Shown here piece after piece: positions 26,029 through 60,084 of a DNA stretch of 64,000 bases. Both the position numbers and the translations under genes were made by a program. A model generated the notes under the pieces. That model made no database searches, was not told where the DNA came from, and was given only the letters and a program-made list of their open reading frames with translations. The DNA is from Pezicula radicicola (lineage: Eukaryota; Ascomycota; Leotiomycetes; Helotiales; Dermateaceae): assembly GCA_003008705.1 (NCBI GenBank), contig PDUO01000013.1:144702-208701 (forward strand), in the 5' to 3' direction. Each line of letters starts with the position of its first letter. Position 1 is the stretch's first letter.

Positions 26029-26729
26029 TCATCTTCTACGACTCCTACCCAAAGTAATAAGCCGTTGCAAAACTTGATAATACCCATTCTCAAGCTGACG
26101 GCGACGATCAACACAAGATCCCGGCCCGCCAGGAAGGGAATTCAACATATCTGCAGCCATTTGATCGAATAGTAACTCGTGGTTATCGTTATCGTCATTG
26201 TTCCGAAGAGGATTAGAATGCAGATTGCCTCCACGCGGTGACATCGGCATGGATAAAGAAAAAAGAAGGCATCGAGCATTCCACGCATAATTAGTTCAAC
26301 ATATCCATAAATTCTCTGTGATCTTCTCGCTTCTCTAGGATAGATTTGGCCAATAAGGATTATGCAGGTAATGTTAGATGGGTCGCAATTAGGCCATATA
26401 GCGGTAGTGAGATACCCTGGCAATCTCGGTAAAGTCTGATACCAGTTGATTTCCAATGTACATTGATCATAATCCATTAGTGCATTATCGAAGAAGATTG
26501 AATCAAAGGCTTTGTAGAATTCCACGACCAAATCTAGGTCTGAGAGATTATTCAATCTATCGAGAAATTATATATCCCTGTTCCTGTAGAAATCGCTGAC
26601 ATCTTGGTTACGACGGCTCTCAAGCTTGAAGGAAAGCCTTTTGAAGATTTCTTCCTGTGTATGGGCAAGTGGTATCCAAGATACTGGCCGTCGGTCTTGT
26701 GGAGGGATAAAGAAGAACTGTTCTGACAT
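26029..26729 (-). pseudogene. SprT-like protein paralog A, degenerate
   Basis: Start at ATG 26727-26729 gives MSEQFFFIPPQDRRPVSWIP, then an in-frame TAA at 26568-26570. Coding then resumes in the same frame: FYKAFDSIFFDNAL, the hallmark opening of SprT-like domains (compare FDRFNSIFFDNAL in paralog D), and TLEINWY. At the position of the HExxH zinc site (HEMLHAFF in D) it reads RGMLDAFF, so both metal-binding His and the catalytic Glu are lost. A further frameshift near 26240 leads into a C-terminal frame ending at 26029. The TAA could arise from CAA by C-to-T change. It lies about 0.75 kb downstream of paralog B on the same strand, and the pair look like a tandem duplication. Confidence 0.6.
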
Positions 26730-27469
26730 ATTTCGCTGAGTTGAAGTGACTTTTAAAATGTATGAAGTTGGATGGATTTCTGTAGAAAGAGATTCGAGCC
26801 TCAGTGACGGTGAAAGGCTTCGGAAGGTTGTAAAGAATAGACGTCCAGAGTCGAAGGAAGGTGTCAAATGAGATTTAGCGAAAGAGAGAAGAGAGTGTGT
26901 TTGTTTTGAAGAATAGAAAAAGTTTGAGGAGATAAGAGGTTGTATTTATCTGTAGCTGCTAGAAGCCCGACATTGCTATAAAAAAAGAGGCTAACATCTT
27001 TATAAACAAAGAGTTGTAATCACAATATCTTAAGAATGTCTTATACCACAAAGAAGAGATTCAGTATTGTCTCACTGCAGAGTGTCAGAAGAAAGGACTA
27101 AAATGCGCTCTTACGCTAAGACAACTAATATCTTTAGCAACATTTAAGATATTCTAAAATCCTACACATTCTTCTGTTACGTCAGTTCAATGCCGAGATA
27201 AAAACCACCTCTTTATTTCCTTCTGAATTTCCTTTAGAAACAAGTGATAGCAACTACAGTAATACAGATCTTAGCCTGGGGAAAATATATACAGTTGTTT
27301 AAATGCTTCCCTTATTCAAATTTGAATACTCATAAGAACTCCGTACCTCAGATACCAGTTAATGTTGTTTATTGCAGTTGTCAAGCGAAGGACAAGTCAT
27401 ATGTAATATCGTTCAAATTCTCCCAGTAGTAACAAAATAGATACCCCCATAATAGATCCGTTGGCTATC
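26730..27469. other. Spacer between SprT-like paralogs A and B
   Basis: Contains the presumed promoter of paralog A, with purine-rich GAGAGAAGAGAG-type sequence near 26880-26940 that resembles the region upstream of paralog B (28520-28600). The remainder is AT-rich with no gene. Confidence 0.35.
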
Positions 27470-28294
27470 TTAGTCCCTATACTCATTATACCCATGCTCA
27501 TCCTCGTCCTCGCTCCTATAATAACAATTTTCATCTTCGTCAACATAGCCATGATAATCAGCATCATTTCCGTGATCATATTCCTCCTCCTCATCGTCCG
27601 CATCATACTCTTCATTCTCATCATCGTCCTCGTCCTCGTCCTCGTCCTTGTCTTCATAAAAAGTGAAAAGCATCTGGCCAATGTCCTCAAATTGCAGTAC
27701 AAGTATATCCGGAGGTAGGGGACCAGGTAGTGTAGATTCTAAATCGCTAGAAAGGGTACCCAACGACGAGCTTGATGAAGAGTAGATTCTGAAAGTCCTA
27801 GACCGAGGATTGCAGCCACAAGGACAAACAAATAGTTCAACAAAAGCATGGAGCATCCCAAAAAGAATATCATGACCATATTTGACAGCTCTTTCCCGTC
27901 GAGAATAGTAGTTGCATTCGAGGATGCTGATCGTACAATCAACATCTTTGATATCATCGATATCTACATTCGTGTTGGTCATGTATCCATGTTCCCGCAA
28001 GTGACTATCATGTGATTCCTCCTGATGTAGAAAGACCTTTTTCAGGCGACAAAACCTCTCCTTCAGGCTGTTGAAGAAAAAAGCCTTGTTGAAGCAGATA
28101 AAAAAGTCTTCGAACAAATCTCTCTCATTGAGGCTTTGGTCGTTGATGAAATCGAGATCAATGTCACTGATTATCATATCGATGTTCTCAAGTTCGTTGT
28201 TAAGCTTGTTTTCAACCTCTGCGAATGTATATGCCAGTCGTATCCAACGTCCGCGTCTTTCTTGATCGGTCTGGTAGAAACACGATCCAGGCAT
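27470..28294 (-). CDS. SprT-like protein paralog B, lacking the zinc site, acidic tail
   Basis: Uninterrupted single-exon ORF of 274 residues beginning MPGSCFYQTDQERRGRWIRL, which aligns by eye with PPQDRRPVSWIPLAH of paralog A. The SprT-like opening is recognisable as FFICFNKAFFFNSL (about 64-77). The metal site is gone: where paralogs C and D have HEMLHAFF, this has FGMLHAFV (about 147-154), keeping only the second His. The last 60 residues are a run of Asp/Glu with Tyr/His, encoded by GAC/GAG-type repeats. It may be a non-catalytic derivative or an open but unexpressed relic. Nothing in the neighbourhood shows its role. Confidence 0.55.
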   Translation of the reverse strand: MPGSCFYQTDQERRGRWIRLAYTFAEVENKLNNELENIDMIISDIDLDFINDQSLNERDLFEDFFICFNKAFFFNSLKERFCRLKKVFLHQEESHDSHLREHGYMTNTNVDIDDIKDVDCTISILECNYYSRRERAVKYGHDILFGMLHAFVELFVCPCGCNPRSRTFRIYSSSSSSLGTLSSDLESTLPGPLPPDILVLQFEDIGQMLFTFYEDKDEDEDEDDDENEEYDADDEEEEYDHGNDADYHGYVDEDENCYYRSEDEDEHGYNEYRD

Positions 28295-29255
28295 GTTTTT
28301 TTATTTTGAGTGGTTGTGTTATTCCTGGGAATAGATTTGAGCTGAAGAGTAGATATAGGTGTTTTGAACTTAAGGTGTATTAGTCTAGATAAATGTACAG
28401 TCGTAGAATTGGTGTCGAGAAGCAAAGAAGCGTAGTGAATGTGAAAGATTTTCGAAGATCATAAAGGATGGATGGCCAGCGTCCAAAACACAAAGGTAGC
28501 CGTTATTCATAAGACGTAACAGAAGAGAGAAAGAAGAAGAGAGTTTTTATGTTTTGAGAAATAGAAACTTTGTAGAAATGCAAAGTGTATATAACTACTA
28601 ACAGCTTGATATTTGTTCTGGAAAAAAAATCATGTTTGCTAGGAAATATTATTGCATTAGTTCAACACTGTATTGACTAATAAGGTGGACTCTGAAGTAT
28701 GAGGTTTGCGTGGCATTGATTAATGCGACGTCAAATCTGTTAATATTGCAAAGTGGCCAAGTCAAGTCATAGAGAGTTAGAATAATATGACACTGCAAAC
28801 TCGTTAGAATAAATAGCTAAGATACAACTAACAACTTCGTGAATAAAATGCCATGGAGTAGCGTTCCTTTGTAATGTGCACTCACCCGCTTGTTGTGAAG
28901 ATTGTCGCTTAATTTTAAGCGACAAACACAACATTTTGTCATACATACCTCACCACTGTTACTCAAAAACATAAATCCATGGGTGCTGTACCTTCTTCTA
29001 TAAATTGTAGTCAATTTTAAGTCACTGTATGTAAGAGTCTAAAATTACATAAGACTATATTTTGCTTGGTTACCTCACTTTGAGTAACTCGCTAAATTTG
29101 GGTATACGCCCGCATTGAGACAAATAACAGCGCAGTATCAGAGTCAAACAAAGATGGTTACTATAACTGAATTTATTCTACTGTAGTATTCTATAAGAAT
29201 TACATGAATGTGCAAAGATTTAGTCTATCTAGGAACTCTACACAACATTCTAAGT
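28295..29255. other. Intergenic region
   Basis: Promoter side of paralog B and 3' flank of the transporter. One copy of the dispersed motif is at about 29068-29106 (CTCACTTTGAGTAACTCGCTAAATTTG). No gene seen. Confidence 0.4.
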
Positions 29256-31078
29256 TTATACAGCAGCCTGGCCATTTTTCTTAATACGCTTCTGTTCCTT
29301 CTGAATCTCCCTGGCAAACTTAACGCCAAATCCATGCTCAAAGACCTCTCTAATATCCTCCAAAGTCATACCCTTAACCTCGGGGTAACAGAAGTACACA
29401 GCTACCCAACCTAGGAAGCAAATACAGGCGTAGAAAGCGAAAGTTCCTGAAGGAGTTGTATTTTCCATTTGTGTGAGGAATGTTGATGCTCTGTGGATCG
29501 AATGTTAGCGCTGTATTATTTTGTGTAACTAAAAGGATAGACTTACACAATAATGTTTGGGCCCCAATTTGAACATGTCATCAGCATTGTTCCATATGCT
29601 CGCACTTCCATGGGGAAGAACTCTGAGGATACCCATGCTAGGTTACCAATACCCGATGCATAGAATGCTACGAAGAGAATCATGGAAACGAGAACGAGAT
29701 ATGCCGGCCAGCCAACTTTAGTGGTAGCAAGGGATAGGTCGTGGTTGACGGGGATCCAGTGGAATGCAACAGCAGCTAATGCCAGGAAAAACGCCTAGAG
29801 ATATCATTAATGTTTCGCTCTTACAATTTTTGAATTTGAAGATAACTTACCATTCCCCACATCGTAGAAAGTAATACACGACGTCGTCCAAACCGATCGA
29901 CGATGTTGAAGTAGACGAAAGTGAAGAAGAAATTCGTTGCTGCGATGATAGTTCCAACGGCGACAGGATTTGAGAAACCAATCAGAGCGAACAACGTCGA
30001 TGAATAGTACATTAACGAGTTGAAGCCACTAAGCTGAGAAATAGCCATAAGTCCACAGGCCGCGATAGTAGCTCTTGCATTGGCTGGGATAACCCAAAGT
30101 TGTTTCATCAACCACCAATCACTCTTGCCAGCCTTGAGGGTCCTAGCCATCTCAACATGCATGGTAATATGTTGTACCTTCTGTTGTACCTGCTCTGGAG
30201 TACCGTTAGGAAATATTTGCTGAATAACCTTGGCCGCTGCATCGTGATGATCGTGGTAGATAAGTTGTCGAGGGGACTCCGGACAGAATGGAAGAAGACA
30301 AGCAAGAATGATTGCGGGGACTGCGCCAAGTCCTACCATTGTTCTCCAACCATGGTTAACGTTTGCAAGGCCAGCACCGATTCCGTATGAGATGAGCTGT
30401 CCTCCGGTGATTGACATGTTGTCAAGGCCAATCATTCGACCCCGGTACTTGGCAGGTGCCACTTCTGCAATGTAAAGCGGAACAATCATAGCGGCTGAGC
30501 CTACACCAAATCCAACGACTAGTCTACCGACAGTCATCTGGGCGAGTGAAAAAGAAGTAGCTTGTAGGATGGCGCCGACAACGAAAAGGATGCATCCAAT
30601 ATAGATTGCGCCCTGTTGGAGGGTCAGTTACATTTCTTGAAGAATATGAGAAGTTTTTTTTCTAAGAGTACGCACTTTTCTTCCGTAGCGATCAGCAGTA
30701 AGACCTGCAACAACTGCCCCCAAGAACGCTCCCCCCGATGTGATGGAGGTAATAAGCTCTTTCTCGGACGAGGTAAGGGTCTTCCCCAGATCTTCATTCA
30801 GATAGAGCATGACAGCTGATATAATGCCAGTATCATATCCTAGATCGATGGCGTTAGATTGGATCTCAGAACCATCAAGGATGTAACCTACCAAAAAGCA
30901 GTCCTCCTAAGCTTGCTGTGATACTTACTAGCCAGACAAACTTCCCACTCTGGGTCTCTTCTATTGAATCAAGACTATCGAGATTCTCAACGTTAGAGGG
31001 AGACGGTGAAGAATCATCGTAGGCCTTCTCGACGTGCATCGAATCATATTTCTGATCCATATCCATAGAATCAGCCAT
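29256..31078 (-). CDS. MFS sugar / myo-inositol-type transporter
   Basis: Model: complement(join(29256..29490, 29547..29794, 29851..30612, 30676..30839, 30892..31078)), 531 residues. Start at the ATG of MADSMDMDQKYDSMHVEKAY; a 50-residue acidic cytoplasmic N-terminus precedes TM1 (GLLFGYDTGIISAVML, spanning intron 1). Sugar-porter signatures: DRYGRK after TM2, VGRLVVGFGVGSAAMIVPLY with IAEVAPAKYRGRM, PESPRQLIY, QLSGFNSLMYYSSTLF, NIVDRFGRRRVLL, FPMEVRAYGTM, and PEVKGMTLEDIREVF near the C-terminus. The overall pattern is nearest to the ITR1 inositol-transporter branch. It faces a Zn2Cys6 regulator and a myo-inositol oxygenase gene 4.4 kb away, which supports inositol as substrate. Confidence 0.9.
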
Positions 31079-32125
31079 TTCGGGGGGGTTCTGAGATTTG
31101 CGTAAACTATTGTCGTTGCAGAAGAATACACCAGCTTGATCAAGAGAGGAAGATTCTAAAATCAAATATAGGAATTTGAGACAGATAGGGAAATTGAGTG
31201 ATTGGCAACGGCACGAAAGGTCTACTCAACAGCTTAAGTAGTCAAAATCTTTAGTGACCAAGAAAGAAAGATACTGAGTGCTTATCTAGATTCGTTCCGC
31301 ATTGCGCACAATACGTAGTTGATCAAGCCTTGGAAAGATGGGACAAGGTATTGGCGACTGCCTTTCTCGGCACCTGGCACTTGCATGCGAGAAATAACGG
31401 ACAAATACCGGTACGACGACGTGAATGCGTCGCAACCTCCAGTAATTGGATCTTCAGGATTGGTCCTTGGAGGACAATACGGGGTTCAGGGTGGAGTTCT
31501 TGTAATATACACCACGAACCGCGAGGAGATTATGGGGATACCCCAGATGAGGGTAACTTGGCTCCAATTGAAGATTCTGTCGAATTGCCTGTTGGAGGTC
31601 GTCAAACTCCCAAAGTCGAGTCGTACAGCCGACCTGATACACCTGAATGGGAAAGCCGGCTGTACCGACGTGGAGAAAATGGAGCAATGGAGCACTGTGC
31701 TGGAGTTTGAGGGGTACATAAATATTGAGGAGATTTATGGGGGATACTCGGCGAGTGACGGGGGTAGGTAAGCCCAGCCCCCAGATTTCCCAAGAAGCGA
31801 GACCAGTCACGAAGTCAAATTGTGATCAATCATTCCTTGGCTGCCCAATAGACGACGCTGTATTAGTCTGGGGAACGGGTTCTGGAGAATTTTATGCTTT
31901 AGTGTCGGCGAACTTGGCCTCTTTAGTCAACTTCCGCTTAGGTACAGAGTTCCGCACTGCCATACTGCCATGGCCTGTCGGAGTTATATACCACACATGA
32001 ATCATCAGCTTTACCAAGGCAAAAGCTTTTGTCCCCTTTGCACTACCTAGTGATCCAGTTTTCCATTACTGGAGTCTTTTCAAACTCAGTAATGTCCCTC
32101 TTTGGAACACGACTGAGTGTGCGCG
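31079..32125. promoter_or_regulatory. 1 kb divergent region between transporter and regulator
   Basis: Shared upstream region of the transporter (-) and the Zn2Cys6 gene (+). The block about 31310-31830 is less AT-rich than its surroundings and has open frames on both strands (31330-31710 and 31454-31810), but no protein family is visible in them. It could be regulatory DNA or a remnant of an unknown gene. Confidence 0.35.
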
Positions 32126-34515
32126 ATGGCCACAAAGACTAGGAGCGGTTGGCAAGTCTCCTCCCACACATTCTTCACAACAGACGCTCAGCTAATGTTG
32201 CCTTCAGTCAGCAATGCCGGAAAAGGCATCTCAAATGTAAATGCATTTAAGCTTAATCATATTACTGCACTGTAGTAGGTATGGGGCATGGAGTTGACTT
32301 GTCAATGCAGGTGATCAAGCTACACCAATCTGTGGTCGCTGTCAGTCCTTCGGGCGGGTATGCACAAAGAATTATGTGTAAGTAACCATGACCCCCATAT
32401 AGCGAGGTACAATTCTGACTTTGTGTCTGTACAGATATCGGTTTCATAAAGGTAGAAACATATGTATTGGCAGGAGTTGATGAGTACATGCTGATGCTAG
32501 CAAAGACAAGTTTGCAGACGACCAGAAGTGGCTAAGTACGTCGGACGATTGTAAGTAATACACTCGTTTCTTTCCCAATTCATTCAGCGCAGACCCAACA
32601 ATCGAGCACATCTGTTCTCGCCCCTTTTCACTCGCTTCACTTTGTGGGCTTGATGAATGTCGCCCAAGTTCCAACTCTGCATAGTACTCCAGTAGTTTGA
32701 ATAAAATTTGTGCAGCTTGCTTTTTCACATTGCTACCTCTCGCTCAGCACCACTTGCACTGAAAAACATCTCGCTTTAAAATTGACTCTTGTCCAGTGAC
32801 CTTTGTGGATGAAACCCAAGGCAGCATGCGAGCTCGGTCAGCAACAATACAAACAACCATCGGTACTCCCACTTCCTCCTTTGGCCAGATAGGCTCTCCA
32901 ATATCTATATTTTCAGAAAGACATACCAATTCAGACTCTCCTACCTTCTCTCAAGATGCTTCGCCCCAATTTACAGTTAATGATCCTCCGACAGCCAAAG
33001 ACCATGACGACAATGATGGTGTGACGGTATCCCAGTACCCGGAAAGTCCACATCAGCATATACTTCAAGATGATGAAGACTTAGGCCCGCTATCTCCAAT
33101 ATATTTAGAAGTCCCAGTATGGCCGCTTGAAAAGCATTCGGAAGTCCTTCTTTTACGTCACTTTGTTCAGAACCTAGCAATTTGGGTAAGTACCCAACCT
33201 ATCGCACAACGTAACTTTCAAGGCGCTCATAAAGAAGCAGCTTGACCTGTGTGATCCACAGGCACACTTCCAAGTTGTTGTTCCTCAGAGGGCTGGGACC
33301 TGTCGAGTCTTGCTCAATGCAATCTTTGCGTTATCAGCAAGGCACTTGAGCCGGACTGGAAATTATGATTCTTTTGCCTCAAATATCTATCATCAAGAAT
33401 GTTTGCGGTACTTGATTCCCATGCTCAACGATACTGCTACAGTCTCCGATGAGAACCTGTTTGCGGCAACAATTATTCTCCGTGTCCTGGAAGAAATGGA
33501 TGGTAGGTACTAGGAAAAAAGAGTATTGTTCCCCAGTAAGCTAATCGTGATTTAGCTCCCGAGACGGAATCTCAGAGTCATAGGCTTGGCATTCAAGTAT
33601 TCGTTAGCGCCCGAGATCCATACGCAATGGGAGGCGGTCTGAGTGAAGCTGCGTTCTGGGTAGGTCTACGGCAGGAAATTTATAGCGCCCTGATGGAGCA
33701 GAAGTCTGTTCAACTAAACCTGGAGCATACCATAGTGGACCGTTCAGACGAGCCCACGAGCGATTTTGGATGGGCTAATCGAGCAGTTGTTCTTTGTGCT
33801 GATGTGTTAAATTGCTGTTTCGGGGACTTGGGAGTTTCCAGCGGGCATTGGATGGAGCTCAAGACGCGCAGCGATCGATGGGAGGAATTGAGGCCTCCAT
33901 CCTTTATCCCTGTATATCGGAGAGATGCAGATCGCAAGAAGAGGGAGGCATTTCCAGAGATCTGGTTTGTTCATCCTTGTCAGAGTAAGTCTGTTATATA
34001 TTTGCTCTTAACTAGCTAGTTTGAGATATATGTTGATCGTTGCGAACAGTAATTGGAATTCAGCATCAGAGATTGGCACAGATTTTGCTTGCCATTTTTG
34101 ATCCTAGCATACCTAGAATTGGAGCTGGTAGGAACAAAGCTGTACGGCTGATGGAGGTATGGCTCATCATTGTTAGCTTCGACTCAAGATATACTAACAT
34201 GCAATAGGAGAAAATAAAACCGTACCTACGCGAGCTGTGCGGTCTAGGATTGCACAATAGATGGACGCCACCCGGCATGTTCACTGCATCGATGGGGATC
34301 GCACTATGTGAGTTCCTTTGACGCCCATTTTCCTTCCTTCAAATGAGGATCTTGTGGCTAATTTGGTTGGCATAGGTGGTGACCGCTTCACTGATAGGAT
34401 AGACCAAGAAGCTCTTCTCAATATTCTAGTGATAACAGAAAAAGATCATGCAAGACCAACGGCGGCTCTGCAACAGCAAATGATCAAGGCTTGGGGATGG
34501 ATTAACGAGGATTAA
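32126..34515 (+). CDS. Zn2Cys6 transcription factor, many exons, GC-AG first intron
   Basis: Model: join(32126..32151, 32208..32236, 32311..32377, 32435..32451, 32506..32550, 32797..33185, 33262..33502, 33556..33984, 34050..34156, 34208..34307, 34376..34515), 529 residues, phase kept at all ten junctions. Cys 9, 12, 19, 26, 29 and 36 (CQQCRKRHLKC, CGRC, VC) are spread over three tiny exons. The first donor is GCAAGT, a canonical GC-AG intron; with it the cluster is perfect. Later exons give KWLSTSDDLTFVDETQ, RVLLNAIFALSARHLSRTG, and a C-terminus with CGDRFTDRIDQEALL, typical of the PF11951/PF04082-type regulators. It lies between the transporter and myo-inositol oxygenase and is the obvious candidate controller of both. 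Confidence 0.87.
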
Positions 34516-35519
34516 CTTGTATACTTATATCAATAATGGCTTCAAACCTGTCGTATGATATGAGATGATATTAAATGAATACCACCTGATTTATGAGCTC
34601 ACGCTTTCACTCCGTCCAACATTGCAGTGAAATTTACTACATTCTACTTAACTATTGATGTGCAACATGTCAACATGTTACGACTATCATACGAGATCCC
34701 ACTATATGAATGTTTGATGAACGCTTGCAGGATATCGGAACAGATATGGTAATTACTATTATTGTACAGACAGCATTGTGAGAAACAGTGTGGAAGTAGG
34801 AGCGGAAGGATGAAGGATCTTTGGTTGACTTGTTGTCAGATCTCGCTTCCCAAATAGGAGATTTTCAGCGAAGCACTAGAAGAACTTCCGCGAGGGGATC
34901 TCCATTAGGTGAAGTTTCCGACGAGGTAACTCTCTCCGGCCAGCCACGAAGGGTAAGTTTCCCCGATCATCGTCATCCCCCACAAAACAATTACCCCACG
35001 GGTCTTGATCAATAGGTCCCGTCAATCTGCCGTGGATCTAAGCATTTCCAAGATACGCAGATGTGGGAATTACTGACTGATGCAGTAAGTTGACAGAAGT
35101 GGAAAGTTGATAGAATGTAGGGAAGTGAAAGAACTTGCTGACGTTCGAGCTACGTTACTTTCCCTCCGAGAGGCGTTACAGGCGTTACAGGCGCTCGTTC
35201 TAGTAACTCGAATTTCCAATCTTGTCCTGGGCCTAGATTCAAGTTTGTATTTATTTGAGCATTCACCATCAAGTCAGAGAGCATTCATTACTCAGTTCAA
35301 ATATCAGTTCACTCTTGCAAGGAAGTTTAATAAATAACCCATCGCACATTCCTTCGACCACAACAACCTTCCAACAATACTCCAACATCAGCCCTTCGAA
35401 AGTCTGCCGGATATCAATCAACTTTCATAACAGAAGTTGATAAGATCATCTTCGTTCCCCCCTTGACCACCACCACCTCAAAACTTCTCACCTTCAATTA
35501 CAACCTTCCAACCATCAAG
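34516..35519. promoter_or_regulatory. Upstream region of myo-inositol oxygenase
   Basis: About 1 kb. Near 35170-35195 is a short tandem repeat of AGGCGTTAC-like units. The 200 bases before the start codon are pyrimidine/AC-rich, as in a leader. An open frame at 34821-35015 has no recognisable content. Confidence 0.4.
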
Positions 35520-36518: not shown

Positions 36519-37196
36519 ATGCTTGAAGTGGCGGAGTTGAGAAGTGGAAGTGGGAGGATACCGCCTGGGCGTTTTTTGATTTTCAAGCGACATATGCCAT
36601 GACAATGCTATCAAAAGATGATGGCAGACTGAAATGTAATTTTTCCACGATGGTTTTCTTCTTTTTTTCCCCCCAACGATGGGTCACATAGGCCATTCAC
36701 TTCTTTCTGTATGCCGAGGCAGCTTTTCTGAGTCCGACAGAGAATCAATAGTCTATGGCGAAACAAAAATAAAATCTTTGGTGCCACAAATTCTAGATGA
36801 ATCTTGAAGTGGACCTCTTTCTTCCTATTTTATATATTATGTGTATAATAATTCACCTTGTGTTGTATAGTGAAGTGAAGTCTTTTCTATATGAGTAATC
36901 ATATGATCTACCCCCTTTGACTAGTTACAAATAGGAAGGAAGTTTGTGAGAAAACTAGCGACATGCAACAAAAGTATAAGTGAGCTACATTAGGAATAAA
37001 CTCTATACTACAGTAACCTAATCGACCGCTTGTAGATTTAGCGGTATGTAATGAAAGTATAATAAGCTCTGGGCCTGTGAGTTTGTGCGAACTGGTTATT
37101 TAAATCCTGTAGAAACCAAAAAATTTCCGTAGAATTAGACACCGCCTTGTGTAGCGTGATTTACTTGTCTTTTCTATATTATTGTGCCCAATATAT
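36519..37196. other. Convergent 3' intergenic region
   Basis: Between the 3' ends of myo-inositol oxygenase and the TauD-type dioxygenase. AT-rich; nothing recognisable. Confidence 0.4.
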
Positions 37197-38940: not shown

Positions 38941-41387
38941 ATACTAGCATGTGCAAGAAAGAAAGTGAGGTGCTCAAAACTATACCTTGTCAGCGGTGCA
39001 TTCGCCATTGCATAGAGGGTCAATGTACACGAGAGTCCGTGCAACTTACTGTTTCTACAATAAGGCGAGACGAAGAAGTAAATTTCTTGCAAGGCTTGGT
39101 CCATGAGATTGAGACAAATACGCAGGTCTGTATGCCGTCAATTAAAAGTAGGCTTCAGCAAAGGCTTTTATATCTAGAGTCCTGAACTGTAGCTACGATA
39201 CCGATGTCCAACGGAGATGCTACTAACGACAGTGCTTTGGACGGAATAGAGCCATTAATAGTTTCCACTACAACCGCAAATAGTAGCAGCACAGTTGAAA
39301 GACTCTGTTATGTCTCAGTCAGCCACGACACTCGAGTATTTGGCTTGGGGCAGACAATACAAACCAGCACACAATGGATTAAGAGAGGATATTGAACTAC
39401 CACTCAAGAGTTCTTCTATCAAATTTAGCGATAATAACTTATCCTCTTTACCGAGTATGGGAATGGCAAAGGCATTAGTAAATTTCCATATCGAATTTTT
39501 GCAATGGCATCACTATGCTTTGCATGCTCCAACTTTTGTCCAGGAGTGTGAGAATTTTTGGTCCTTTGGGAAGACATCGGATATGCTTTGATTGGCTTTA
39601 TACTTTTCGGTGTTGAGTGTAAGTAAAGATATATTTTTTTGCTGAATAGAACGGCTCAAATATCTCTAGTCTGCAGCATGGTGCTTCCCAAAGTCACAGG
39701 CAGAAGCCCTATTTCCAAAATGTAAGTTCCTAGAGAGCTGAAAGAGGAAGAATTCTGGATTAATTAATTTTGCTAGGTAATCTGAAGGCGTTGTCTACAT
39801 CCTGGTACTCTGCAATGGTGTCTACATTGTACAAAAATAATTACCTCGGACAGCACTCAAGTAAGCCCTTATCAAAATAGAGCATTCAACGCTCTAATCA
39901 AGATAGTCTACTCTTGTCAAGTCATAATCATTTCAACTCTTGTTGGTCACTGCCTCGGCCATAGTGACTTAAATACAGCTTTGATTAGTTCCGCAATTCG
40001 AATTGCTCAATGCATGAGTTTAGATAAACAAGGAGAAGAAGACGTTAAGAATCTTCCTTGGGAAAGAAAAGTGAAATGCGAGATTGTAAGGAGGGTATGG
40101 TGGCAACTTTGTATTCAAGACTATTTTGCAGTAGCCTTTGCTAATACATATAGTAAGTCTCGCTCAGTAATATTCTACTTCTGACAGGAAACTGATGCGA
40201 CGTCTCAGTCGTTCATCCAAGGCAATATTGTACGCCATTACCAACCAATTGTAACGACGATACTCTAGAAGAGAAGTCAATGGAATATCAAACTATATCA
40301 TCATACTGTATTTCACTGCAAAGAGTAAGGACTTTTTTTCTTATAGAAATTGAAATATGCTCCATATGACTATATCTAAGTGTATAATATTTGCATAGGG
40401 GCATAGTAACTCATTTAGATTGAGTAACTCACTTGATTTGAATATCTCATTTAAAGAGTGTTTCAAATATCACGCAGCTAATATTCGGTACAGTCACTAG
40501 TCTGATGCCCGAAGTAATCGACGGGATATATGACTACAAGAAACCAATTCCAATAGAGAAAGCCTACCAGCACATCGTAGACATGGATTTCAAAATGCGA
40601 GAGCTAGTTGCGAGTCTACGTAAACTTTTTCTTCGCAGTTCCTCTGAACCTGTTTTATATCCTTGGGTTGATTGGGCAAGAATAACATTGACAATTAGCG
40701 CTGCTAACAAGGTTCGTACAATTCTAAACCATTCCTACCAAATGCTGAAGTTTCTTTTCCTAGATTGTTATGATTCACCGTTCATTCACTATTTGAACCT
40801 TTCGATCGCCAGTCTACGCATACACTAGGATGACATGTATTTCGGCTTCAGTAACGATTTTGCGCGAGTACGCCAAAGTGACAGACATGGATGTAGCTTC
40901 AATTTGGATCGTCCCTGCTTTTACCATTGCAGCAGCTATCATTCTAATGCCTGACTTGCTACATAAACCAGCGTCTGACCCTAGTAATGCGGCACACCGA
41001 GAGCTAGTTCAGACTGCAGTACTGGGTCTTTCATTAGACTTTGAGAATATAATGGATGTGAGAGGGGCAAATATATTGGAGGCACTGCTAAAAGACGAGG
41101 TTGAACGACACCGAAATACATCCTCACCGGCGTCCAACGATGAAACCCATACAGGACAATCAACAATGGAAAACATTGATTCCTTGGCAGGATTCTACGC
41201 GCATCCTTCTGAGGGACATCTGGCTTCAAAACAAAGCTCTGCTAGATATTCACAGCCATCCACCAACTACGATGATTTGCAAGTTTGGTTCGACGAGTCC
41301 ATGCCTTGCAGTAATAATACTGATGTCGGACTACTCCCACTAGGTGATCATAGATTCGAAACGTCGTATGGGGTTGACATGTTTTGA
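38941..41387 (+). pseudogene. Zn2Cys6 transcription factor pseudogene
   Basis: Protein signatures of a fungal regulator run along the whole interval, but with breaks. The zinc cluster is split by a one-base shift near 38983: one frame has CARKKVRCSK, the next TIPCQRCIRHCIEGQCTRE. A second frame change is needed near 39299, before SATTLEYLAWGRQYKP. An in-frame TGA at 39589-39591 follows KTSDML, where LALYFSVLS continues in the same frame; TGG-to-TGA is the simple explanation. Later blocks look normal: LISSAIRIAQCMSLDK, EIVRRVWWQLCIQDYFA, MPEVIDGIYDY, WVDWARITLTISAANK, and a C-terminus to 41387. It probably once controlled the flanking dioxygenase and permease genes. Confidence 0.75.
40404..40458. 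repeat. Dispersed AACTCACTTGATTTGA motif, two tandem half-copies
   Basis: Reads AGTAACTCATTTAGATTGAG followed by TAACTCACTTGATTTGAATA. It lies inside an intron-like stretch of the broken regulator. Related copies are at about 17940, 29070, 43964, 46381, 46669 and 58189. Confidence 0.6.
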
Positions 41388-45351: not shown

Positions 45352-46191
45352 ATGAGTCTCTTCCTGGACAACTATTCTTCACATATGGTCGAGTTTATGC
45401 ATGGGCGCCCAAAACCTGGAAGCCACTTCGCACAATGGCATGGTGCCAAAATCGAAGAAAATCGTAACCGGGATGGGGAGATCTTTAGTAATTTCAACCA
45501 CTACATAAATGTCATGATAATCAGAGTATTGTTGTGGGGACATGCGCTCGAAGATCTAGAAGCTGTATTGAGAAGCTTTGTTCAAAGAGAAGGTAGAAAC
45601 CTCACATCATCTCAACTGGAAGGGCGGCAACGGTACCAGTTTCTATTGCAACAATACAGTCACGTAAATCCCGAGAACGACAGTCTACTTCTCAAGTATT
45701 ACAACGCTTTTAACGAATGTTTCTTCTTCGGGTCACTAAAATCTCTTTGTAAAGTTCAATTTTTCAGTCCAGAAAGCATGCAAGGATTTTATGGTCGTTG
45801 TTGCCCCTATTCTTCAGAAGTCCCTGACAACTTTATGTGTCTCATCAGGATCTAAAATAGATCAAATGAAAACACGGACAAGAGCAATGAGGTTAGGCTT
45901 CGAGATTACCTTGGCACGTTATTACATGAGATGCTCCACGCCTTCTTTAGTATCTACACCTATAGATTCGATGCACAGTCTATACGTATGCAGCACCCGG
46001 GGCTTGGATCTTCAGGTCATGCCTGTGTCTGGCAAAATGCAGCATTGAGCCTTGAAAATGCAACTAATAATCTGTATGGTGGCCGTCTTGACTTGGGTCG
46101 TAGAAGAGGCCTGGGCACTGAATATAAACGGAGTGGTCAGTCTCCGCTTCAGGAAGGCTTGGACTACTGGCGATTGCAGTGGAGGCATTAA
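45352..46191 (+). pseudogene. SprT-like protein paralog C, intact zinc site but one premature stop
   Basis: One continuous frame of 280 codons from ATG 45352 (MSLFLDNYSSHMVEFMHGRP) to 46191, broken only by a TAA at 45853-45855 (codon 168). The SprT-like opening is YYNAFNECFFFGSL. After the stop the same frame gives YLGTLLHEMLHAFFSIYTYR, with HExxH at about codons 192-196, then HPGLGSSGHACVWQ, the HGxxW/F-type third ligand region. No GT-AG intron of reasonable length removes the stop (the nearest pair is 24 bases). CAA-to-TAA by C-to-T change would explain it. Either a very young pseudogene, a readthrough product, or a sequencing or edited base. Confidence 0.65.
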
Positions 46192-47221
46192 CGTAGAGCG
46201 CACTTTCTTTTCGCGGTCGGTTTAGGTGCATGGGAAATTAGATGGTAACAATGGAAAAGTATTTGAGTTTTTACAGTGTTGCATGCCTTCACAGAATGCA
46301 ACCACTTTGCCTACCCGCATGTTGCTCCCCAAACAACCATTCTATTTAAAAATTTGAACAGAAATATAGAAAATAGACTTTAGTAACTCACTTAGTTTTA
46401 AAAACGCGCAATAACAAGGTATTGAATTGTAGCATGTGACAGCAAGGGTGTAAATAGGAGGTTCGCTTAACATTAACGCCACCCCCTTTTTGAAGAGTGA
46501 AGGCTGAAAAGGTTATGAAGGTTCGTTCGGATTTAATATAAAATCCGAAACCCCTACGGAGTATGGGACCACCAACACTGTACGAAGTGAGCGGTGAAGA
46601 CAATATGGACTGGTAAATATAACGAAAAGAAAGCCACCACAAAGCCCTCTAAGACCCTGACGTATTTTTTACTTGAGTAACTGACTTGATTTGAATAAAT
46701 CACTTATTTTCAGCAACTTGGCTTGGTAAGTAACTTCCTTGATTCCATTTTGAGTGACTGACTTGCTTTGAGTAATTTACTTGATTTGGGAAGCTCACTT
46801 AAATTCACGAGGTGTAGAATACAAGAGTGTGGAATTTAAGAGTTGACCATACCGATGCAACGTTGGTCAGTTTTGAAGATTGTTCAGGGCGCTCTTAGCC
46901 CAGCAAGATGCTTGTTATGGACAACACATACTCATCTGAGATCATACAAACATGGCAGAAAACGAAACATGTGAAGTTGTTAGAATCTTCGCGATGCATG
47001 ATTCGCTACATGAAAACTCCAGACTTTTGTTTTCGAGAAATGGTCATTCCTCGAATACAAAGGTGTATTAGACCCATTGTCCCCTTGCACGAACCCGCCC
47101 ATTCGTTGTCCAAACATATCGTATGATCATCCATCCATTTGTCCTAATTAGCATGAAAGCCCGAACCCACACCTTACGCCTTTCCTTGAAATATGGCTTA
47201 TCTTTCACGGTATCGAGGTTT
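46192..47221. other. Intergenic region, paralog C to dynein light chain
   Basis: Besides the motif copies it holds AT-rich DNA and the 3' flank of the dynein light chain gene. Open frames at 46908-47126 and 47068-47427 match no family. Confidence 0.4.
46381..46806. repeat. Dispersed motif copies, dense cluster at 46669-46806
   Basis: A single copy at 46381-46400 (TAGTAACTCACTTAGTTTT) and at least six units in 46669-46806, including GAGTAACTGACTTGATTTGA, GAGTGACTGACTTGCTTTGA and GTAATTTACTTGATTTGG. The unit is about 20-24 bases and the consensus is near GAGTAACTnACTTGATTTGA. Confidence 0.7.
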
Positions 47222-51251: not shown

Positions 51252-52269
51252 AGGAGTCAAACATAGGTATTTATCAATAATTATCATTCGAGTACTCCTC
51301 GAGCTCCCTCGAGTCCCTCAAGATCAATTTTCAATCATCTTGTGCGAAAGTGGCAAGCGTCTCGCCCCTTGCCGAAAAGTCGACGACATAATTCGACAAA
51401 CACCCCTGCGCAGGCAAATACAACCCCTTTCGCAGAGGACAGTTTCCTGTACAGGTAGGAGTTAATTATCTCAACGCTGAACTTGCAATGCCCTTACGAT
51501 CTAGTATCGATAGATGTTACACTCAAGGAGTGTCTGGTTATTTACTTGTGTATTCGGTATCCCTTTACGAGGAAACAATGAAACAATAAGACAGTCTCTT
51601 AACTTTTCCTTCTACCAAGTTCTAGGTTCGTCACGAACAAATCAGCCCTTCTCCTTTCTTACATTCTCGTGCCTTAGAAGTTTAGCACGTGGTAGTTAGG
51701 AATCTAGCAAAGATGAAGCATTCCTCAAGCTGGAGAAGCCTCACATCTCCACAGGAACCGTTCCCTTGCATCATCGATCTGAACCGGACCACTGGAGTAT
51801 TCCCAAGTATTTTGTCATTGTCTTTCCGGATATGGCGTTTCATCGCCGTCGGAGAGATTGACGAGAGTCTGTACAACTCTAGGCTTTCATTGAGGGTGTA
51901 TCTTGCTGTTTGGTCGTCAACTCCTATCAAAGCCACCCTACATCCTAGTCTTCTCAAGAGGCTCTCAAATCGTCGTCTTATTTACGCGAAGCCAAACTCA
52001 CTTATAAGCGCACTTTGTCGCTCCTCCATTCTCCAGTCAGCTGTTGACATTCTCTCCCTGAAGTCTCTTGTTAACCCCAACGCTGCCTGCCATTCCTTCA
52101 AACATTTCTTACTGCAATCCTTATCCTTTTGCCAACCAACAGACGCTCCTTTGGCTACCCAGCATTACGATTTACGACTGCGTGACGACACATTAGCGAT
52201 CTTGCAGCGTTCTCGAGTCACCTGAAGCATTCTTATCCTCCTGCATTCATACCTACTACCTTCGCTCTC
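51252..52269. promoter_or_regulatory. 1 kb upstream region of the TEA-domain gene
   Basis: Contains the 3' flank of mrd1 and a long, pyrimidine-rich probable leader. A 178-codon frame at 51689-52225 is open but shows no domain and has a Ser/Leu-rich composition expected from CT-rich DNA; it is more likely leader or uORF-bearing sequence. Long 5' leaders are common for developmental regulators. Confidence 0.4.
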
Positions 52270-54749
52270 ATGGACCATCGTCGGCATATTCTGCCTTCGA
52301 GCTTCAATCATCAACAGCTTCCACTTAATGACCCTAATGGACACTCAAGGGTAAGGCAACCTTTATCAGACTCAGCTGGTAATGCTCAGCTTCATGCTCT
52401 TGCATCAGTGGGTCTTTATCATGATAGTAAAGCTCTACAGCCCCGGGTCGACAGACCCCTCTATACGATTCCAACCGTACCGTCGCAGCCAGCGCGGCAG
52501 CCTGTCGCCAATACTCTAGAGCTTCGACGACGATATACACGAAGAAACCGACACCAAAGGCACAGCCGAAATCCTATCCTCGACTCGCCACAGTATCAGG
52601 CGTATCGTGCTCGTCAGGTTCGAGATAATGCATCTGAGAGTGAGCAAAAGTGGCCGGAGGTCCTCGAGATTGCCTTCCTCGACGGTATGTAGTCTTGTCA
52701 ACAGCATATTTCTTTGCTAACATCGTTGTAGCTTTACTTGACATCCCTCATATGGGCCGCCGGAAATATTCTTTGAGAGGAAAACCTCACGGGCGTAATG
52801 AGCTAATCAAAGATTATCTGTGGATTGCTTATTGTCAGAGCTTGCCGCCTGGTCAACAGCCAGACCCGACAATGAAACGAGGAAGGAAACAAGTGTCAAG
52901 TCATATTCAAGTCCTGAAGGGGTTCTTTCGAGACCACCCAGCATGTAAGATACATTGTTGTGAGTTTCGATCGATGATTAACTAAACCTTACAAGTTGAA
53001 CGCCTCTTCCCTACGAACAAGCCCCCCAAAAACGGACTCGAAGACAACTTCAAGAGTGATCCCACGCTCATAGCTCTTTCTCAAGGCCGATTGCCACCTC
53101 GACGTCAAGATCAGTACATGGAGATCAACCAAATGATAAATGCTAGTCATGTGCCAATGAGGCCTTCCGTCTATTGGCTTTTGATCTCTTCCGGCTCAAT
53201 CCCGAACGATGTTCACTGGAGGCTTAAGAGCGAGGATGATCTTTTCAACGATGGAGTGGTTGTTCATAAATACACAGGTTTGTCATCAGTACGACCCCGT
53301 GCAAGCCTCGAGTCAATACCAAATTGGCGAGCTCGATGGCCATGTCTTTCACAACTCCACACCCAGGGTGAAACTGGGTACGACATAATCCATATAGATG
53401 TATCACTGGAATTGATGACAGATCACGCCCCAGACGGCGCCGAACTACTTTCACGAACAGAGATGATTATCCCAGGCGGAGATTTCTCTGGAAGCCAATG
53501 GCGGTCTGTCACAAGTCTCGTCAAACCAAAAGAGCTATATGGTGAAAACGAGGAGTTCCCACTACCCATTACGCATTCTCCTGTAGATATAGCAGGCGTT
53601 ACCAGCACTGAAACACGCATCCGATTACAATTCCCGGCGAACCCTTGGGCTCATGCTCTCACCTGCATGACAAACCTCCAGGTGCAATTTGAAGAGATGA
53701 GAAAAGCTCAGTCGTACGGCGATAATAGCGTTCGAGGTCCCACTAAATCCGCTCGCGAATATATTGACCAAATATCTATGTACCAGGAATTGCAGTCGTC
53801 TGCGGATCCTGATAGACTTCCATACATACGAAGAGCCATTATTATCTGGACGTTCCAGAAGACAAGGTCGGGTGCACACGGCGAAACAACATGGCGATAT
53901 CTCGACCCAGCCCCCCCACGAAACATGTGCATGTCGCCATCTCCCCACCCCAGCCACCATATCTCGGCCTCCATGACCGAGCATTTCAGTAATTGCGGCG
54001 GCTGGGACACACCTCTTCAGCTTCAGCCACCAAATGTAATCGATGCCTTTGGACCAGCAGGGCTCGTAACACCTCCCCAAACAGCAGGCCTCCAATCACC
54101 TTTCGCATCAAACTACCTCCATCCCGGTTCACACTATGATTTGCCATCAGAACACCTGAGTTTCGTCTCCGATGCTACTGCCGATAGCGAGTCGACACTT
54201 GTGAATGATACCACGGCGCATATTGATAGTTTTCTCTCTAATGCTGATGCTGCCCTTGGCGACTATGACCAGACAACCAATAACTGGCATCTCCCAGTCA
54301 CAGAATCCTTCGACACAGACGCCAACTGGGCATCATATACCGTCCCATCAACCACTCCCCAACTCTGGGGAGAAGACCCATCTCCAAAGATCGAAAGCCA
54401 GAACTCCTGGAACAACGATAACTCTCAAGATGCAGTCGTCAACACTTCAAAACATCATACACCTTCATGGGTTGACGATGCTTCTGCCAATGAGAAACAT
54501 GATTGGGGTTCTACTGTCACGAGTCCTAATCGCCAAAATCAGGCATATAATACTGATCAAGGAAGTAACCATGATGAGTCTCAATCTGGGAAGGCTTACC
54601 GTGTCGAGATCAACAATTGTAGTCTTCCTCCTATGAACGCTGGTACGCCTACTGGTACGGGGGATTTACACAAGAACTGGGGTGTTAATAGTGATACCTT
54701 TGATTACGAAACTCATCTTGCCAATCGTCTTATCAATCATAATAAGTAA
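52270..54749 (+). CDS. abaA: TEA/ATTS-domain transcription factor, AbaA-type
   Basis: Model: join(52270..52684, 52732..52944, 52996..54749), 793 residues. The TEA DNA-binding domain is at about 126-205: KWPEVLEIAFLDALLDIPHM, GRRKYSLRGKPHGRNELIKD, RGRKQVSSHIQVLKGFFRDH, including the conserved SSHIQVLK recognition helix. Introns lie within and just after the domain (phase 1 in both). The region after it has MRPSVYWLLISSGSIPNDVH and a globular centre, then a long Asn/Ser/Thr/Pro-rich disordered tail. AbaA/Tec1 proteins control conidiophore or filament development through CATTCY sites. Assignment to AbaA rather than another TEA protein rests on filamentous fungi usually having one. Confidence 0.9.
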
Positions 54750-56366
54750 AGCCAAAACAACTAATACGAAAGAGATATCCGAATCTGTTTGGCCTTGTTG
54801 GTTTCGGGGGGTTTTTTTTTGGGGGGGGACTTTTTTGGTTTTCTTTTTTGGTTTTAGGGCAGCGTGTAATTCCGTTGATGAGAAAATCTGTCATTCTTAT
54901 GGAATCTGGAATCTAGAAAAGGTGGAAATTGGATATGGGAAATGGAAAAATGGAGATGCAACGATCTAATTTTTGAGAGATGAGATCAAGTCCTGTTTAT
55001 TTGTCGTAGTTGCTATTTTACGAGCATTAAGGAGTTTTTCGTTGTTTTTCTGTTTTCCGAAGAATTTGAGAAAGAAGAGTATGTGCTTTGGAACTTTCGT
55101 TTTTATCACTTTTGGTTAAGAGGATATTTTGAGGTTGTTGATTGATGTCATTTTCATAGCGATTTTTTGCAGTTTTTGTTTTGTTTGTAGAAACAAAGCG
55201 TGTACCTGCAGGTCTTTTGTTTTGTTTGGTTTGTTTTGTTTTTTTGATATGGATAGTATAGGTAATTCGGAACTTTCGTTTATGGCCAATTTTTTTTTAT
55301 TTTTTTTTTGTACTTACAAGATGCTAATATCTGTTGTGAATTTATGCATTGTTTAGGTTAAGGGAGAAAGCATTTTGCATGAGATACAGAAAAGACTGAA
55401 CTAGTAACCTTGATTTTTTATATCTTTTTATGATATTGGTTTATGTTAGGCTAAGGCAGTGAGTGCTAATACTGTTGACTTAGTTGTGCGACTTTGTATA
55501 TATCTGTTACATAAATGCTAGCATATATATGAAGCAATTAAAGGCTAAGGCATCAAAATTGCACTAAATAAATGTACAAATTATGGTGGGAAGAAAAATT
55601 GGCACGTGGGACTCGCTTAAAACTACACAATATTAAAGATATTCAGACGTCGTCCTCGTCCTATGTGACTTCAACATACCTAGATAAGGTAGCTATTTCA
55701 CTTGTTAGACTAGCGAACTATGACCCTCTGCTTTACCATACCACCTATAGGCCTTTCCGTTGTCTGTGATCTAGATTAACTAAAAAAAAATCTCATAATA
55801 CGTAGCTATATAAGAAGTATAGGTCCTAAAGACTTGCAATGAAAATCACAGAAAAGTGACACACCCCAACCCCAAAGCGAAGTGGGAATCGGTCTGTATA
55901 AGCAGTTTTCAAGAATCTCCTTAATTCTCCACAATCTGCTCGCACGAGCCACCCAAAATACGTAGCGGAGAAGCAGTCCAGGATCAAGGTAAAACAAAAT
56001 GACAGGCCAGAGATGTTTAGGAGCTTCCAATTCGTACGATTCCATGGTAATCGAGATCATTCATCAAGATATGATCCATGTAACATGACGGTCTAGAGGG
56101 TAATCCACAATTTTGACGTTTCCAAACCGTCACAAACGGTGGATAAGTGGATAGTAAGAGACCTTCGAAATGTTTTGCGTAGCTAACTACCTACTGAAGC
56201 TCCACAAATTTGGAAGAGATTTACAGAACATCATCGAACTTCTCCTTGATTGAAGCTCGACCGAAGCATGTGAAAACACGAAAATGGGTATAAGTAAGAA
56301 CTTCTAGACGTTACGTTTAATCAGAAGTGTCTCATTCCAACAACTTTCAGAGTCTTGACCATCAAC
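54750..56366. other. 1.6 kb gene-poor region, homopolymer-rich
   Basis: Right after the stop is an odd run of G and T blocks (about 54808-54865: G6, T10, G9, T6) and further T-rich DNA around 55220-55312. No convincing gene; a minus-strand frame at 55806-56060 has Trp/Leu-rich content but no recognisable family. The right end is the P450 promoter. Confidence 0.4.
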
Positions 56367-58056
56367 ATGGCCGTGACGAAGCTCGTCGAGGAGTCCTCGC
56401 CCATCTTCAAGGCACAGTACATTATTATTATTGTGGCCTTGTCCTATACCGTGAGTATCTCCAAGCCATTCGGATATTCTAGGCATTATTAACGTAGTAC
56501 AGGTGTATTTCCTCAGTCGCCTCATTTACAACATCTACCTCCATCCACTGTCCTCTTACCCAGGTCCAAAATCATCCGCAGCAACAGATATACCTTTTAT
56601 CAGAGCTCTACTCAATGGCAACCTGACCTACAAAACTCATGAACTCCACAAGAAATACGGAGAAGTGGTTCGAATCTCACCCAATGAGCTCTCATACAAT
56701 TGTGCTGAGGGATGGAGAGATATCTATGGACATCGTATAGGTCGTCCTCAGATGGAGAAAAGCAGACCATTCTATGATACATTGGCTGGTGGTGCCCCGA
56801 ATATTGTCACTGCACCTGCTGGTGACCATTCTCGATTCCGCCGATTACTATCCCATGCTTTTTCTGAAAAGGCTATGCGCGAACAGGAGCCGCTCATCAA
56901 GGTTTACCTTGATCTATTGATCCAGCGTTTGAGGGAGACAAATGAAAAGCCCACAGATATCGTGCAGTGGTATAACTGGACAACATTTGACATCTTCGGA
57001 GATCTCTGCTTTGGCGAGTCTTTCCAATGTGTTGAGAAAGCTAGCTATCATCCTTGGGTCAGTATGCTATTCGAAAGCATAAAGTTGGGTGCCATAATGA
57101 TGGCAGTCAGTCGGCATTCCCTCTTTAACAATCTTGCAGAGAAATTCACACCAAGTTCTCTCTTAGCCAAACGAGATGCTCACAATCAGATGGCAGAGCA
57201 GAAAGTTGCTAAGCGAAGGGAGTTTCTAACCGATCGAGCTGACTTCATGAGTTATATTTTGAAGCACAAAGATAAGTCTAGCATGACTGATGCTGAGATC
57301 AACAGTAATGCAGCTATCTTAATTATCGCTGGCTCGGAAACAACTGCGACTCTTATGTCTGGAGCCACATATCTCCTTCTTCAAAATTCTAAAGTCTTGG
57401 AGAAGCTCATCAAGGTTATTCGCGAAACGTTCGCTAGCGAAGATGAGATTACAATTCAGAGCGTCAGTAATGTGCCATATCTCTTGGCAGTGCTTGACGA
57501 GTCATTACGAATGTATCCTCCAGTACCTGTTGGTCTTCCACGAACTGTCGGCCCTACTGGCGATATGGTTGCTGGTAAATGGGTCCCTGGAAATGTAAGT
57601 TACTTCTTCAGCTAAAATAGACGCAAACGAAATTATCTTATAACAATTTACTCTAGACAACTGTCTCGGTCAATCAGTGGGCAGCATATCGATCTCCTGA
57701 GAACTTTACAGACCCCGACAGCTTTATCCCTGAAAGATTCATGGGTGCACCACGTTTTGCATCCGACAACTTTCAGGCATTTCAACCTTTCTCCACTGGG
57801 CCAAGAAATTGTATTGGACGAAAGTGAGTGATTCTTTCCCCTGAGATGTTTATACATAATGCAGTGTGATAGCTAACTCTATCCGTGTAAAAGCCTTGCA
57901 TATGCCGAGATGCGTCTTATCATAACCCGAATACTCTGGAACTTTGATTTGGAGGCTGATGATGGGCTCGCAACATGGGTAAAGCAGAAAATATACACCT
58001 TGTGGGAGAAGGGACCTCTTATGGTCAAGTTGAGACCAAGGAAGGATCAAAACTAG
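56367..58056 (+). CDS. Cytochrome P450 monooxygenase
   Basis: Model: join(56367..56450, 56503..57594, 57657..57823, 57894..58056), 501 residues. An N-terminal membrane anchor (YIIIIVALSYTVYFLSRLIY, about 18-37) is followed by HPLSSYPGPK. The I-helix has IIAGSETTATLMSG, the K-helix ExxR is in LDESLRMYPPVPVGLPR, PERF is present (SFIPERFMG), and the heme loop FSTGPRNCIGRNLAYAEMR is completed across the last intron (AA|C). The pattern is close to the CYP65-type (isotrichodermin C-15 hydroxylase-like) group; substrate unknown. No secondary-metabolism backbone enzyme is in the window, so this seems a lone P450. Confidence 0.93.
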
Positions 58057-58725
58057 TACCAACACGACGGTTCAATAGAGATTGAAGTTAGAAGGGCGGT
58101 GGAATAGTGCTGTTAAGAGGGTAGAGGTAAGTGCCACACTAATTAATTTATAAGAGATCATTTCAATAATCTATTCAGACATAAGAGATGGACTTGAATA
58201 ACTCACTTGTCCTAATCAAAATGATCTCTTATAAACCATTCGTACGGCACAGGACTTATACTAAGGAGAAAAACAACTAGATGTAGAATAGAGGTAGGCA
58301 TATCTGAGCCTGGAGCGCTCTCACAGGGATGTACTTCGCTAAGAATGTGGTCCAATGTTAAATTTCGAGTTCCCAACAACATTGTATGAACCCTCGAGCA
58401 CAATAATGATGATTTGAATAAGAGTCTGAATTTTCTGATTCCTCAAAACGAGTGGGAGGCAGCAGACCTTTATATACAATAGCTGAGCATCAATTGGAGC
58501 CTGATTTCCATACAAAATAAGGCATTCCGGATGCGATGGCATTGCGCGTAGAGCGCTACAATAGAAACCAGTATTGATAGAGGCCTGAGCGAAAGGCCCG
58601 AAAAGAAGAAGCAATTATGGCCAGAATGAGGATATACTGACACATGACAAAAATGGGCCACAATGGCTGACACATTGTCTTTAAAAATATCCATTTATTC
58701 AATTGGATTTCTATTTTGTGTCTCT
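58057..58725. other. Convergent 3' region with a short inverted-repeat element
   Basis: Between the 3' ends of the P450 and paralog D. It holds the 89-bp inverted-repeat element at 58147-58235. Open frames on the minus strand (58212-58694) show no family. Confidence 0.45.
58147..58235. mobile_element. Miniature inverted-repeat (hairpin) element, 17-bp perfect arms
   Basis: TTTATAAGAGATCATTT at 58147-58163 is the exact reverse complement of AAATGATCTCTTATAAA at 58219-58235. The 55-base interior carries the dispersed motif core (TTGAATAACTCACTTG at about 58194-58209). No clear target-site duplication is visible. It may be a MITE-like unit or a transcript hairpin in the P450 3' region. Confidence 0.5.
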
Positions 58726-60084
58726 TTACTCTAAAAACCCTGGCGTCGTACCTTTATAGTCTCCTGGACAATAGTTATGGATCCAGTCATTGCTTGTCTG
58801 ATCAGAGTATTCGATCCATTTTGCATCATCGACAGTTGTGGATTTGAATCCAATCTCTTCAATGATATTATCTCTAGTCAAGGTCGACGAAGCCGGTTCC
58901 GTATAATAGCCTTCGCGCATTCTTAATATCTCCTTTTGCAAAGAACCAAGACGGTCGCCTAATTTAATTTTTAAGTCCAACTCTTCAGAACAAAATTTTT
59001 CCTAAAATAGTATAGAAGTTAGCAGTGATTCTTACAAACAATATAGTAGACGGAATATTATTTGGAACATAAAGAGGAGAGGAATTACTCACCATCTCAT
59101 AGGCAGTCTTTTGCCAGTGCCATCCGTGGCCAGTACCGCCACATCCCATCCAAAAGTTTGTGCCACAATACGCATTGTCGTTTTCGCTGCATGTTCCGAA
59201 TAGTTTAAAGAACGCATGGAGCATCTCATGAAGTAAAGTCCCTAAGTATGCGCCGAGAATCTGACCTGGCTCCATAGCCTTGAGGTATTTATGCTCATAT
59301 AGAACAATACCAACCGGATGTTGTTTCTCAGGGAACGGGTCGATATAGAATGTTTGTCCCCACACAATTGTATCCAGCATTCCCGGCCTACTCATATCCC
59401 TAATCCATTTTTCTGAAGAGCATAATATCCAACGTTTATAACAGAGATTAGGCGTCAAAGCATTGTCAAAAAAGATGCTATTGAAGCGATCGAAGTACAG
59501 TTGTAGCACCTCATCGGATTCTAGGGGAATGTCCAAGACGTTCAAGAAGTTTTCGCCTTGATTGTCAAGTTCGTGGAGTTCGTGGGTTTTGAAGTCTTTT
59601 ACTGCCTTCGAAAATTCCACCGATCGTTGTCGATTTGGTCTTGGCCATAATCTTAATGTAAGTTTTGTTGTGATATTTTCGAATCTGTGACTCGCTAGTC
59701 TCCATTTTGATGAAATATTATTGTCCAGAGCCATGGGAATAGTGTTCGGCTTTATCAATACTGGAGGGGTCTTGCTTTCCTCATTGGCAATGGTCTTAGG
59801 TGCTTTTCTATTTAACGACAATTTTGAAAACTTAGACTCGACCGCAGAGACCTAATTGTTATTAGAAATCAGCTCTTTAACATTACAGTATAAGATCGCC
59901 TAGGCTTATGTCGAAACTCTATGCATAAGATCAATTCGAAAGTTTGAGCGTTGCGATATCTTCGGTCTTCGAAATGCGAGCGGTTTGGAAGGATTTACAC
60001 TACACTTACATCTGTGATAGTCGAACTCGAAACGCCATTCTTTCCAGAATCCTCACAGCCTTCATCGTTGTCAACTCTACCCAT
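58726..60084 (-). CDS. SprT-like zincin domain protein, paralog D (intact)
   Basis: Model: complement(join(58726..59001, 59093..59851, 60010..60084)), 369 residues; introns start GTGAGT and GTAAGT and end TTTTAG and AATTAG, phase 0. The start is ATG 60082-60084 (MGRVDNDEGCEDSGKN); the large second exon has no ATG of its own near its beginning. The SprT-like domain opens with YFDRFNSIFFDNALTP, has a middle strand DTIVWGQTFYIDP, the zinc site LLHEMLHAFFKLF (HExxH at about 233-237) and GGTGHGWHWQKTAYEM (third His at about 267-270). Cys pairs between them (GTCSEND, AYCG, GCGG) may add stability. SprT relatives cleave DNA-protein crosslinks, but this fungal group lacks an obvious DNA-binding region; its role is unknown. 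Confidence 0.8.

Follow-up and report, generated by a model that had tools for sequence, protein, structure and literature searches.

The window analysed here is a stretch of 64,000 nucleotides from the fungus Pezicula radicicola, part of contig C25. It carries four genes, called A, B, C and D (Table 1), whose frames and motifs were read directly from the window sequence and which we assign to one family of putative SprT-like zincins. The genes lie where an earlier reading of the sequence alone (the sequence-only reading) had placed them, all four have the common opening F(N/D)xxFF(D/F)(N/G)xL that it described, and B, C and D are in the states that it gave. Of the window members, D alone is both intact and equipped with a complete zinc site: as had been claimed, it is spliced and uninterrupted, has both HExxH and the third His, and encodes 369 residues over three inferred exons with the intron donors GTAAGT and GTGAGT (splice sites predicted).

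Table 1. Family members, the window segments from which gene fragments were copied, and the patchwork locus. Positions without a contig or locus prefix refer to the window.
Feature	Position	Strand	Remarks
Member A	26029-26729	-	RGMLDAFF replaces HExxH; TAA 26568-26570; pseudogene
Member B	27470-28294	-	open, 274 codons; FGMLHAFV replaces HExxH; acidic C-terminal tail
Member C	45352-46191	+	HEMLHAFF and SSGHACVW; one in-frame TAA, 45853-45855
Member D	58726-60084	-	three exons, 369 aa; HEMLH and GTGHGWHW
D exon 1	60010-60084	-	splice sites and start predicted
D exon 2	59093-59851	-	putative SprT-like core: FNSIFFDNAL, HEMLHAFF, GTGHGWHW
D exon 3, including stop	58726-59001	-	splice sites predicted
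Source of D fragment	59468-59581	-	85% identical copy on contig C69
Source of C fragment	45592-45746	+	82% identical copy in mosaic locus, contig C111
Member C47	C47:1048227-1048983		HEMIH and GHG; frame broken or spliced
Member C73a	C73:237430-238041		QQMVV replaces HExxH; open 204 codons, stop to stop
Member C73b	C73:242413-242793		HQMIY replaces HExxH
Patchwork	L019:2354-6093 (C111:218.2-222.2 kb)		single-copy mosaic; contains C piece

C keeps HExxH and has the single TAA that had been reported, and is a pseudogene or nearly so. An intron in place of this stop was considered and rejected: no usual fungal donor gives an in-frame removal, and the nine intron combinations that arise when any GT is allowed as donor are all unconvincing. 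The residue spacing across the TAA is the same as in C73a, a member on another contig (22 codons, counted on the tree alignment). In A the TAA precedes the motif, and the frame carrying the motif terminates at a second stop (26142-26144). The stop and RGMLDAFF were described correctly for A; the frameshift that was also proposed may lie before the second stop, ahead of a piece that is at most a candidate homolog. An intron in place of the A stop was likewise rejected, as a scan limited to the usual donors gave no in-frame removal. B is a candidate pseudoprotease. A six-base tandem repeat, TCGTCC, lies inside B (27624-27652) and encodes part of its acidic tail.

The sequences support the claim that A to D are one family. 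In leave-one-out profile searches, in which the tested member was excluded from the profile, six members (all but C73b) were run against a small search set consisting of the window and eight genome loci. Each was recovered, which places the grouping of A to D beyond chance: expect values were 7.6e-12 for D, 5e-12 for B, 1e-15 for A, and 1.9e-7 and 2.3e-6 for two pieces of C. Scores ranged from 25 to 55 bits for A to D and were 48 bits for C73a and 26.0 and 16.5 bits for two pieces of C47, against at most 9.9 bits for the best other frame when two gene fragments, on contigs C69 and C111, were set aside. A and B are 29% identical over 116 residues, and C and D have the HExxH segment in common (E 1.5e-5 in the genome search).

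Single-protein searches of the genome (61.0 Mb, 152 contigs), which yield lower bounds, put the family at no fewer than seven members (A, B, C, D, C47, C73a and C73b) plus two gene fragments, so that the earlier count of four holds for the window but not for the genome. Four of the seven fall inside 34 kb of one contig, which is far from random placing (<1e-6 by rough arithmetic). A second small cluster is found on contig C73 (L054:1462-1893, L020:3931-4542), where both members are without the catalytic Glu. When members are counted by motif, HExxH and a third His are present in three of seven, D (HEMLH, GHG), C (HEMLH, GHA, behind the stop) and C47 (HEMIH, GHG). HExxH is missing from the other four (A, RGMLD; B, FGMLH; C73a, QQMVV; C73b, HQMIY), which are homologs and are not classed as proteases. 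The frame break in C47 could be spanned by an intron with a GTATGT donor at the price of a conserved strand, and we therefore list this member as broken or spliced. Short dispersed repeats are common to window positions 46673-46806, 40420-40452 and 58138-58247 and to the C47 locus (L017:4895-5065), beside family members.

A tree of the seven members (128 columns) has tip branches that are all at least 0.9 replacements per site. A and B form a pair (support 84/73) with Gly at the position of the catalytic Glu in both, and C73a and C73b form a second pair (support 90/90) with Gln at that position in both. The simple reading is of two probable losses of the catalytic Glu, each preceding a duplication. 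The description of the window genes as four states of decay is too simple, as B and C73a are open despite a probably old loss of the Glu.

Neutral simulations indicate how seldom such frames would stay open by drift. At 0.1 substitutions per site the 274 codons of B remained open in 5.8% of runs, and the share fell to 0.37% at 0.2 and 0.05% at 0.3; for the family part of B alone (182 codons) it was 1.15% at 0.3 against 0.08% at 0.5, and for C73a (204 codons) 0.45% at 0.3. Either selection has maintained B as a non-catalytic protein through most of its existence, or the losses are recent and convergent. B and C73a may have been retained as non-catalytic proteins.

The two gene fragments derive from overlapping parts of the D and C genes, and each can be compared with its source. 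The copy of D on C69 is a lone piece of 115 bp (L018:3971-4085). Differences between D and this fragment fall at 10 of 38 third positions and at 6 of 76 first and second positions (Fisher p 0.011), an excess expected if the D line is under protein constraint, and the data fit such constraint. C differs from its copy on C111 at 28 of 155 positions, a greater divergence than ten further coding donors at this locus show (117 of 1080, p 0.015), as would fit fast or relaxed change in C; the contrast at first and second positions only (p 0.11) and the third-position excess in C itself (p 0.12) are not significant.

We consider it reasonably probable that A to D belong to a divergent, fast-evolving SprT-like zincin family of this helotialean fungus in which D is an enzyme, C has been stopped, the Glu was lost twice, and B and C73a have been kept. 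The evidence was weighed against a plain decaying protease family, in which only D, and perhaps C47, would be functional, B and C73a would be young pseudogenes that have yet to meet a stop, and the motif changes would be early damage. The broken state of A and C and the existence of the C69 and C111 fragments agree with decay of this kind, and support for the A and B pair is just 84/73, such that Gly perhaps arose twice. We nonetheless think it somewhat unlikely, given the rarity with which neutral drift leaves B, or even its family part, open at 0.3 substitutions per site, the low identity of A and B, and the repetition in C73a and C73b of Glu loss combined with an open frame. A more elaborate scheme is a set of proteases and pseudoproteases engaged in a rapid arms race inside the cells of this fungus. 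Two branches would have lost the Glu independently before duplicating and would then have been retained as open genes, whose products partner or inhibit active D-type enzymes or serve as their decoys. This scheme is speculative, and we regard it as doubtful.

The assignment to SprT is remote. Searches with PF10263 gave no match to A to D at E 1 or better, and the SprT-like label proposed in the sequence-only reading holds at the profile level only, through C47 and the joint family profile. C47 scores 24.6 bits against PF10263, where the gathering cut-off is 25.6, and the match spans the active-site stretch, correctly aligned and with the third His included; the cut-off is a threshold rather than a trait of the protein, but a score under it limits the claim to that of a remote relative. 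Among PDB sequences, the family profile matches two Spartan chains best (E 0.0073 and 0.010), and hhalign of the family against 26 SprT-like proteins of the family of L022, a gene on contig C66, gives 92.5% (E 5e-7), or a weaker 33% with the window members alone. A structure prediction of D from five window rows was uninformative. In the structure model of D, zincins rank at the top with Spartan among them, but the match is weak, and TTHA0227, selecase and YbeY score like Spartan. The weak match and these scores, together with the lack of PF10263 matches for A to D, would suit another zincin-like or unrelated family with HExxH by chance. The fit of C47 to PF10263, third His included, the rank of Spartan as best PDB sequence match and the hhalign result argue against such a family, which we judge improbable. 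Taken at profile level, the results support the placement of A to D as remote relatives of SprT.

Spartan/SPRTN of PF10263 (PDB 6mdw, 6mdx) and D have in common an order of elements, predicted for D, that runs from the FFxxxL helix through strands and the HExxH helix to a later GHG; D differs in having no PF10263 match at E 1 or better, and its family in the absence of HExxH from four of seven members. A Pfam search of the 369 residues of D bears on the accessory parts that bind DNA or ubiquitin in the DNA-protein crosslink proteases SPRTN and Wss1; it detected neither a zinc ribbon nor a further domain at E 1 or better, and did not extend to short motifs. The L022 gene is the only gene of its type in the genome that PF10263 matched. 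Its proteins have the core in common with the window family but differ in having many relatives in other fungi: 199 were returned from the protein database, and among the 120 listed the best named matches come from Coleophoma cylindrospora (60%) and from Phlyctema vagabunda (53%). These two, and most of the other named matches listed, are helotialean fungi. L021 (contig C64) combines SprT with a zinc ribbon and shares HExxH and the SprT core with D, which has neither the zinc ribbon nor an HMG-box; the HMG-box match of L021 is itself weak (14.9 bits, cut-off 25.4). L021 resembles the SprT-HMG proteins named in an excerpt of PMC3730723. The SprT named in an excerpt of PMC6240243 is an unrelated serine protease, and among the titles and abstract openings retrieved none names a fungal SprT-like expansion.

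Relatives of the window family were not found in 5.8 billion proteins, either with D as query (897 candidates, E limit 0.01) or with the joint alignment (5815 candidates, E limit 0.1), in searches that require shared 5-residue words and so may let remote relatives escape. The database covers many related fungi, as the relatives of L022 attest. The lack of relatives, the long tip branches and the two gene fragments support the earlier suggestion that the family is lineage-specific and turns over fast. The further suggestion that A to D are secreted effectors, here of a plant-associated fungus, is very improbable: fast change, small family size and the lack of relatives would suit it, but a crude hydropathy test found no hydrophobic, signal-like N-terminus in any of the four gene models (highest 9-residue mean 0.27-0.91), and the genes stand among ordinary neighbours with no AT-rich block in the window. 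Six of ten neighbouring frames examined have a Pfam match; five represent a sugar transporter, a myo-inositol oxygenase, an RRM protein, a P450 and an F-box protein, all ordinary genes, and the sixth is a TLC-domain frame.

The copy of C on C111 sits in a patchwork of pieces from elsewhere in the genome. Twenty-six genome places, spread over many contigs and many of them in unrelated genes, match 25 distinct pieces of 44-205 bp at 74-94% identity, covering 60% of 4001 bp. At 9 of 24 junctions the pieces meet within 6 bp, and at nine they overlap by 1-31 bp; random placing gave 1.1 close junctions on average, and nine in none of 5000 trials. Twenty of the 26 donor places were fetched and 21 aligned, counting C, itself one of the 26. 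The aligned pieces lie wholly within the longest stop-free frame of the donor site in 16 of 21 cases, some of these frames being short, and eight of ten donor frames scanned contain a Pfam domain (amine oxidase, GH17, MFS, methyltransferase, RIO2 kinase, Rpc31, HECT and Sac). The sole control, the 8.5-kb C69 locus, shows apart from the D fragment a single 597-bp match (66%); two of its places also have short matches (39-45 bp). A genome search found no second full copy of the 4-kb patchwork, and an Rfam scan of the 9-kb mosaic locus gave no match. Repeat-induced point mutation was rejected as the source of the divergence, as C>T and G>A make up only 115 of 264 substitutions, summed over the 21 pieces, with no dominance of that type; transitions make up 188. 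A 315-bp repeat with at least 38 other places in the genome (L019:1832-2145) lies about 200 bp left of the patchwork. Serial template switching during break repair, or the capture of fragments by a mobile element, could have produced the mosaic; fungal Helitrons are reported to capture gene fragments (PMC4289320). No retrieved title or abstract opening names a patchwork of gene fragments of this type.

The family with retained non-catalytic members, which we favour, would expand by local and dispersed duplication and shed members. D probably makes an intracellular zinc metallopeptidase, in which both HEMLH histidines and the one in GHG are predicted to hold zinc and the Glu to activate water. 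C would once have been catalytic and then cut off by its single stop. The Glu would have been lost before duplication in the line of A and B and, separately, in that of C73a and C73b; afterwards A would have broken, and B and C73a would have remained readable, probably acting through most of that time without catalysis.

The novelty of the family is modest. Should B and C73a not be maintained, it offers a compact case of how a fungal genome gains and loses genes. If they are maintained pseudoproteases, one genome would have put a SprT-type fold to non-catalytic use on at least two occasions, beside an intact enzyme, which would point to a role other than routine DNA-protein crosslink repair.
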